DNA of 39,301 nt from Candidatus Saelkia tenebricola (GTDB taxonomy: Bacteria; Omnitrophota; Gorgyraeia; Kaelpiales; Kaelpiaceae), in NCBI GenBank assembly GCA_030765145.1, contig JAVCDA010000045.1, forward strand, positions 1-39,301, written 5' to 3'. Shown piece after piece: positions 13,008 to 31,671 of this stretch. How positions within the stretch are numbered: the stretch's first letter is position 1; the number at the start of each line of letters is the position of its first letter. The position numbers were made by a program, and so were the translations under genes. Below the pieces are notes generated by a model. It was not told where the DNA came from. It did not search any database and was given only the letters and a program-made list of their open reading frames with translations.

Positions 13008-17824
<4,817 letters not shown>

Positions 17825-30182: not shown

Positions 30183-30634
30183 TTTGATCCCTCTAAAATC
30201 ACAACTTTCACACCATATGATTCCAATTTAGATTTAGCAGCTCCACTAACTGCATGAACAGATATCTCCAGCTTCTTATCTAACTCTCCATTCCCTAATA
30301 TTTTAACCGGTTTCCTAAGATAACGAATTAACCCTCTTTTTTTTAAAATCTCAGGGGTAATCTTATCGCCTTCTTCAAACTTATTTAAATCAGATATATT
30401 TATAATTTGGAAATCTCTCGCAAACAATTTATTATTAAAACCTCTTTTTGGAATTCTTCTAATAAGAGGCATCTGCCCGCCTTCAAAATATGCTTTGATT
30501 TTGGGGCTTTTTCTCTTCCTCTGACCATCCATACCTCTAGTAGCAGTTTTTCCATGCCCTGAGCTATTACCTCTGCCTACTCTTTTTTTACTCTTCTTTG
30601 CCCCAGGGGGTACTTTTAAATCATGTAGCTGCAT
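30179..30634 (-). CDS. rplO: Large ribosomal subunit protein uL15
   Basis: This 151-residue protein begins [20 protein letters not shown] and carries the Gly-rich basic region ([19 protein letters not shown]) followed by [11 protein letters not shown]15 is an early-assembly protein of the 50S core. Its start overlaps the end of rpsE by 14 bases, leaving no room for rpmD, which commonly sits between them. Ribosome binding is helped by GAAGAGGTG inside the rpsE end. Confidence 0.97.
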
Positions 30635-31118
30635 CTTTCACCTCTTCAACTTTCGGTTTTTCATCCTCTTTTCTTTTAAGACGTAATTCAGAAAAAGCTA
30701 CAATAGTTGCCCGAGCTAAATTAATCGGAGTCGGAGACCCTAAAGATTTGGTTAAAATATCTTTTATTCCTGCCATTTCGCATATCGCTCTAACCACTCC
30801 ACCTGCAATAACCCCCGTACCTTCAGATGCAGGTTTAAGCATTATACGCGATGCCCCAAAATGACCTACAATACCATGAGGTATAGTAGCACCACGAAGA
30901 GGAACTTTAATCATATTTCTTCTGGCATGCTTAATGGATTTTTTAATTGCATCGGCAACTTCATGAGCCTTTCCAAGCCCTACCCCAACTTCGCCATTTC
31001 CATCGCCGATAGTAACCAAAGCATTAAAAGAAATAGTTTTGCCTCCTTTATTGGTTTTAGTTACCCGCTTAATCGCTATTACTTTTTCTAAAAAACCTAT
31101 TTCCTGCCTCTCAACCAC
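30621..31118 (-). CDS. rpsE: Small ribosomal subunit protein uS5
   Basis: This 165-residue protein has the S5 double-stranded RNA-binding region ([20 protein letters not shown]) and the C-terminal fold ([21 protein letters not shown]). S5 contributes to decoding accuracy and to mRNA unwinding at the entry site. A short acidic tail ends it ([12 protein letters not shown]). It is preceded by the 175-base spacer with the tandem structured elements, and by an AAGGAGGTTATAAAAG site at its start. Confidence 0.97.
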
Positions 31119-31133
31119 TTTTATAACCTCCTT

Positions 31134-31278
31134 AATGAGCAGTAAATTTTTAGCCTCTCTTGAGGCTGAAAATTTTAGGCATCAGCCGTCTGCAAATTAT
31201 ACCTTTTGGAAAATGAGTAGTAAATTTGTAGCCTTTCTTCAAGCTACCAATTTTAGCCATTAGGCATCTACAAATTAT
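31134..31278 (-). repeat. Two tandem structured elements between rplR and rpsE
   Basis: Two 67-base units (31134-31200 and 31212-31278, period 78) match at 54 of 67 positions, without gaps. Each can fold the same way in the minus-strand transcript: an outer 4-base stem (31139-31142 with 31190-31193) encloses a 3-base hairpin (31178-31180 with 31185-31187) and a long hairpin (31144-31157 with 31162-31175). The linkers are one or two bases, giving a compact three-way junction. Six of the 13 differences form three compensatory pairs: 31140/31192 C-G to T-A, 31150/31169 T-A to G-C, 31179/31186 G-C to C-G. Two other changes repair or keep pairing; a few disrupt it. It may be a structured RNA element, or a palindromic repeat family unit. 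Confidence 0.85.
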
Positions 31279-31293
31279 CCAATTCATCTTAAT

Positions 31294-31671
31294 TTAAAAT
31301 TCAAGCCCAGATTCTCTTGCAGCCTCTGCAACAGCCTTTATTCTGCCATGATACTTATAACCACCACGGTCAAATACAATCTTTTTTATACCCAATGCCT
31401 GAGCTTTTTGAGCTATTAAACTTCCTATCAACTTAGCTGCTTCTATATTTTTTCCCGATTTAACCTTATCTTTAATCTCAGGCGAAGCTGACGAAGTTGA
31501 AATTATTGTCACTCCTGTATCATCATTAACCAATTGTACATAAATATACTTCAAACTCCTGTGAACACACAATCTAGGCCTCTCTTGAGTACCCGAAACT
31601 TTTTTTCTTACTCTTCTATGTCTCTTTAAGAAACCTTTCCTCTTCTTTTTTATCATTACTGTAAGATCCAT
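31294..31671 (-). CDS. rplR: Large ribosomal subunit protein uL18
   Basis: This 125-residue protein has the basic N-terminus and the L18 core ([20 protein letters not shown], then [29 protein letters not shown] in parts). L18 binds 5S rRNA in the central protuberance. I keep the ATG at 31671, preceded at 10 bases by GGAG in the end of rplF; an internal ATG at 31656 would also fit the family. After its stop comes the structured spacer. Confidence 0.97.

Follow-up and report, generated by a model that had tools for sequence, protein, structure and literature searches.

The only large spacer of a compact ribosomal protein cluster in Candidatus Saelkia tenebricola, between rplR and rpsE, holds an insertion and not a ribosome-specific regulatory RNA. 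The inserted DNA is probably a member of a dispersed, hairpin-ended mobile repeat, represented here by degenerate tandem copies of its 3' terminal hairpin. The family to which it belongs is apparently undescribed and phylum-wide, and its long forms encode a GIY-YIG protein. The stretch of DNA analysed, called the window below, comprises 39,301 nt, and the features concerned are as follows.

30621..31118, minus strand: rpsE, GTG start, the downstream gene.
31127..31132, minus strand: Shine-Dalgarno sequence (SD) of rpsE, AGGAGG, host sequence, found at the empty site as well; the GCTCATTA end lies directly against it.
31133..31200, minus strand: unit A, beside rpsE, the 3' terminal hairpin module (type A), identified by folding, copies in the same genome and model R1; its layout is ATAATTTGC, AG, the small hairpin ACGGCTGATGCC, the long hairpin, CT and GCTCATTA.
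31201..31210, minus strand: inter-unit mini-stem CCAAAAGG, corresponding to the central stem (CCC..GGGAT) found ahead of other copies.
31211..31278, minus strand: unit B, beside rplR, a more decayed second copy of the module, ATAATTTGTAG...CTACTCATT.
31133..31293, minus strand: the entire 161-nt insertion, from the rplR stop codon (31294-31296) to the rpsE SD, missing in three genomes of the same family (G001, G003 and G004).
31294..31671, minus strand: rplR, the upstream gene.

The spacer (31119-31293) measures 175 nt and is the sole large gap of the cluster, as the sequence-only reading had pointed out, whereas most other genes overlap or lie a few nucleotides apart. Both rpsE and rplR are on the minus strand, which is the transcribed sense of both units, a point absent from the sequence-only reading. 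Pairwise comparison of the spacer copies returned the two 67-nt units of period 78 that had been described, and the recomputed identity of 54/67 agrees with the figure of about 81% given earlier. In the minus-strand reading each unit runs from ATAATTTGC to CTCATT, and the rpsE-proximal one stops exactly at the SD, GCTCATTA being followed directly by AGGAGG. Folding predicts the same three-way junction for both units on either strand, again as first proposed (plus-strand z-scores of -5.1 and -3.1). The pair-preserving double changes on which the earlier argument relied are all three present, one per helix (C-G/T-A in the outer stem, T-A/G-C in the long hairpin and G-C/C-G in the small hairpin), but they are not the whole picture: at least three other differences unpair the long hairpin of the second copy, nearer rplR (T-A to T/C, C-G to C/A and C-G to T/C), and this hairpin is therefore partly decayed. 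No Rfam family was found at or above the gathering threshold, and a relaxed threshold of E<=1 gave nothing credible.

In three genomes of the same family and another genus (RpsE 68-71% identical), the rplR-rpsE spacer reads TAA-AGGAGGTATATA-GTG or close to it. Since these sister-genus spacers are empty, the window genome has gained 161 nt between the stop codon of rplR and the SD; the SD is present at the empty site, and thus belongs to the host and lies outside the element, which rules it out as an element part. The vacant orthologous position is not what would be expected of a cis-regulatory RNA of a ribosomal protein operon, and it bears directly on the reading of the units as a leader RNA, either a protein-binding, attenuation or processing 5' UTR for rpsE and the genes downstream, or a regulon-wide translation element that includes the SD. 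In the sister genera the element is absent and the SD intact, and the spacer is not conserved, the pattern that the sequence-only reading had itself named as speaking against a regulatory role. In other families the spacer has various lengths. The same junction carries a different palindrome in one genome (G022, L254) and a degenerate, related-looking palindrome in another (G020, L258), from two other families, and may be a hot spot for insertions.

A DNA search of the window genome (1.63 Mb, 88 contigs) with the units returned many scattered intergenic copies on other contigs, the outcome that had been proposed as the mark of a repeat family. The end motif GCTCATTAGGAGG occurs exactly eight times in this genome and never in a reversed control. 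The copies precede unrelated genes, named from their translated starts, among them aroC, aspS, ribH, gcvH, an EF-G-like gene, rpsL, atpE and tatA. The earlier suggestion of a hairpin-forming repeat family is thus borne out, and that of an autoregulatory RNA or a processing or attenuation site falls on the scattered copies before unrelated genes and the empty site in relatives; the same two observations lead us to reject a regulatory RNA of the spc operon. Across the loci of the genome, differing hairpins are enclosed by the common ends GGGATAATTCGC and GCTCATTA, and tandem units like those of the window are also found on three other contigs (C20, C44 and C55). The window-genome loci examined yielded no GIY-YIG gene. 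Two aspS loci with near-identical flanks (C37:47600 and C48:4284; L031 and L034) differ in their hairpin content, and from this pair the bin probably contains two strain variants.

The copies were modelled (R1) from 14 aligned sequences, some from the window genome and others from GenBank MAGs that one pattern scan recovered, with the SD left out. In that scan 11 of the 16 matched contigs were titled Omnitrophota or Omnitrophica, and some of the others were chance matches. The core module consists of TAAT/ATTA, an invariant TC/TC internal loop, GCNC/GNGC, a short 5' bulge and a helix of 8-10 bp. Pairing in the alignment reaches 93%, with 32 double-change cells, and the covariation score is 0.306, against 0.113 for shuffles and at most 0.07 for slid controls. 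Although the model stops short of the SD, an SD and a start codon come after most R1 matches in the window genome. Type A units match it weakly (19-25 bits; 19.3 bits for unit A, at 31133-31203 on the minus strand), and their link to the R1 family comes from shared features: identical terminal boxes, a TC/TC loop and SD context in common, and arrays of mixed type (aroC on C44, and C55). A further weak match at 15164-15213 of the window lies inside a coding region and was taken as chance.

Matches to R1 are present in 235 of 384 Omnitrophota genomes at E<=1e-4, many genomes having at least 14; the E-values come from a short calibration, and counts near the threshold are approximate. Fuller scoring gave 94 matches in G124, 67 in G055, 31 in G393, 21 in G273 and 16 in G027. 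G393 is a MAG titled Nitrospirota (L041), many of whose 31 copies are a short 49-bp variant, reflecting either a mislabelled bin or spread across phyla. In addition, six IMG/VR viral contigs (L411, L369, L347, L395, L366 and L360), whose phage-like genes were assigned by eye, carry the element between genes, several per contig; a phage-borne copy used as query had no match in annotated phage and plasmid collections.

The full element comprises a 5' hairpin (H1, TAARTGARGCC...GGCCGAAYTTA), a central stem (CCC...GGG) and a 3' hairpin (H3, TAATTCGC...GCTCATTA). The two terminal hairpins are inverted relatives, and R1 matches one in each orientation; each has a 2x2 internal loop that is nearly invariantly TC/TC in the H3 sense. 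Neighbouring R1 matches form 59 outward inverted pairs against 10 other arrangements over all loci examined, a pattern first noted in G027 and others. Elements measure 139-276 bp (n=54) or 380-421 bp (n=5). Their two ends are not equivalent: an ORF start is found within 30 nt of the H3 end in 99 of 126 cases and of the H1 end in 11 of 73 (Fisher p=8e-19; ORFs of at least 60 aa, or shorter where the contig piece ends), the H3 distances clustering at 0-3 and 9-16 nt. Seven of the 126 H3 ends abut instead the A-run of a convergent terminator, with no start; in the window genome, the H3 end of one copy (L078, C44:20133-20192) lies against the T-tract of a convergent terminator and has no SD. We infer a purine- or A-rich target on the H3 side, which would explain both the start and the terminator contexts. 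Direct repeats of 8-17 nt, a possible trace of target duplication, flank a few copies and are not evident at most full elements; at SD-type sites the clear ones measure 17 nt in L285 (AAGGAAGTCAAAATGAA), 11 nt in L235 and 10 nt in L280.

A leader RNA would agree with the sense orientation of most copies upstream of an SD, with a fold conserved through compensatory change, and with three orthologous sites occupied in another genome; it is at odds with the unrelated downstream genes, the H3 ends at convergent terminators, the inverted repeats formed by the element ends and the near absence of G-U pairs, and together with the empty sites these make it quite unlikely. A CsrA-type site was likewise discarded, the GGA motifs not being conserved as judged from sequence only. 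The occupied sites are shared by the window genome and another Omnitrophota MAG (G391), between gcvT and gcvH, between ribBA and ribH, and before aroC, with flanks 62-76% identical and very different hairpins. This suggests either hot spots of recurrent targeting or long retention for use, and a secondary benefit of the elements to the host is possible.

The pairing of the stems is informative on the level at which it is maintained. Over 106 aligned hairpins, the stem cells comprise 1843 Watson-Crick pairs (98%), 14 G-U, 7 A-C and 17 others, and stem differences within a single genome (G055) affect both sides in 3797 cases and one side in 256. Selection on an RNA fold would be expected to allow G-U far more readily than A-C. 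Because both are rare, the pairing looks to be maintained at the DNA level, an indication that is supportive only, as the model matches favor good pairing and the copies are related. The selection on structure advanced earlier does not look to act at the RNA level: changes preserve pairs family-wide but are strictly Watson-Crick, with G-U making up 0.7% of pairs. The pattern is compatible with one arm being corrected from the other, or with a perfect DNA hairpin being what is recognized.

In six of the longer elements, from three families, the central stem between the two terminal hairpins houses a GIY-YIG-type ORF of about 80 codons (L186; L238; L241 and, by reading, L242 in G273; L295 in G055; L304 in G367), and the five elements measured span 380-421 bp. 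The three ORFs tested match PF01541 with 45.9, 37.5 and 57.2 bits against a cut-off of 22.6 (E 2.1e-15 to 2.9e-9), and the proteins have solved relatives in PDB entries 1zg2 and 1ywl (UPF0213-like). In the case of L295 a coding form was predicted from the element length, and the ORF was then found; G037, a sister species, has an element without the gene at the position of L238. Another two GIY-YIG genes each follow a tRNA-Leu gene directly and are bounded by repeats of the tRNA 3' end that are 21 nt and exact in G037 (L279:3960-4391), and about 28 nt with one mismatch in G367 (L307:1276-1800), where a related hairpin adjoins the gene; these likely represent a tRNA-targeting sister type. The literature covered contained no link between GIY-YIG proteins and such repeats, nor any report on structured RNA in Omnitrophota; both are weak negatives, with subscription papers and preprints outside coverage.

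An ordinary MITE of a DDE insertion sequence with TA ends, its transposase elsewhere and the GIY-YIG genes mere passengers, would also leave short non-coding elements, inverted TAA...TTA ends and an empty site. It accounts poorly for the strong polarity of the ends and for terminal repeats that are near-perfect hairpins with freely changing stems. Moreover, GIY-YIG is the only gene seen inside the elements, at the same position in three families, and we hold this explanation to be unlikely. The earlier proposal of a REP/MITE-like element that landed in the operon was right in kind, but membership in the REP/RAYT systems does not hold. A REP/REPIN family mobilized by a Y1 (RAYT) transposase would match the high copy number (up to 94), the intergenic location, the inverted hairpin doublets and the conserved stem mismatch, and Y1_Tnp is present in 31 of 40 genomes of the phylum. 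However, five element carriers (G055, G333, G273, G170 and G000, the last being the window genome) have no Y1_Tnp match, and none of 30 Y1 loci has the element nearby, whereas REPs adjoin RAYTs (PMC3116915). On inspection the hairpin foot bears no GTAG or CGTC tag, the feet being TAAT...ATTA with the TC/TC loop, whereas the GTAG tag matters for TnpA-REP activity in REP systems (PMC8266576). This origin, disfavored already, is very unlikely.

With somewhat less than even confidence, we propose instead a new class of bacterial mobile element with three hairpins and its own single-domain GIY-YIG nuclease of about 80 aa. The minority of elements that bear the gene, all elsewhere than in the window, would be the autonomous versions, and short gene-less copies would move in trans. 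The main step beyond the observations is that the GIY-YIG protein would be the mobilizing enzyme, cutting or nicking the target at start regions, or at tRNA 3' ends in the sister type, both of them features that every host has, with a strand-transfer or repair route presumably behind the insertion. The H3 end joins A- or purine-rich sequence, mostly the SD or the start codon of the downstream ORF, so that translation start signals stay usable after insertion, and the replication cycle would keep the terminal palindromes perfect at the DNA level. Against this explanation stand the weak R1 scores of the type A units, the lack of a GIY-YIG gene in the window-genome loci examined, the rarity of clear target duplications and the three sites shared with G391. 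The type A units of the window would descend from the GIY-YIG-carrying family, and the window copy is probably a non-autonomous, locally tandem member of a family propagated by single-domain GIY-YIG nucleases.

GIY-YIG domains have mainly been described in intron homing, repair and restriction. If the link with the repeats is true, such a domain would also drive a very small, high-copy mobile element throughout a phylum, choosing its targets in a way that leaves expression unharmed. This would account for many intergenic repeats in Omnitrophota MAGs and caution against calling such hairpins riboswitches; it would also provide a natural system that places short DNA exactly before ribosome binding sites.

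Known GIY-YIG homing cases are located in self-splicing introns or are free-standing. Like homing endonucleases and UPF0213 proteins (1zg2, 1ywl), the element would combine a small nuclease domain with target-specific insertion that spares use of the target, but here the ORF belongs to an intergenic element with three hairpins, of which many copies lack the gene. The attC sites of integrons vary in stem sequence and keep their fold, unpaired spacer and bulge. The element does likewise, and recognition of a single-stranded hairpin would fit; unlike attC it has no R/L box match (RYYYAAC/GTTRRRY), no cassettes were seen, and its copies stand before housekeeping genes. With prokaryotic MITEs (reviewed in PMC10969869) it shares short length, lack of coding capacity, terminal inverted repeats and probable mobilization in trans, but its terminal repeats are hairpins, its ends are non-equivalent and a DDE partner was not seen. 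Finally, REPINs and REPs with TnpA-REP (PMC3116915, PMC8266576) are also small, intergenic and high-copy, with inverted doublets, a stem mismatch and non-autonomous copies, whereas the element has hairpins of about 60 nt with freely varying stems, a central stem, polarity toward start codons and a GIY-YIG ORF in its long copies.
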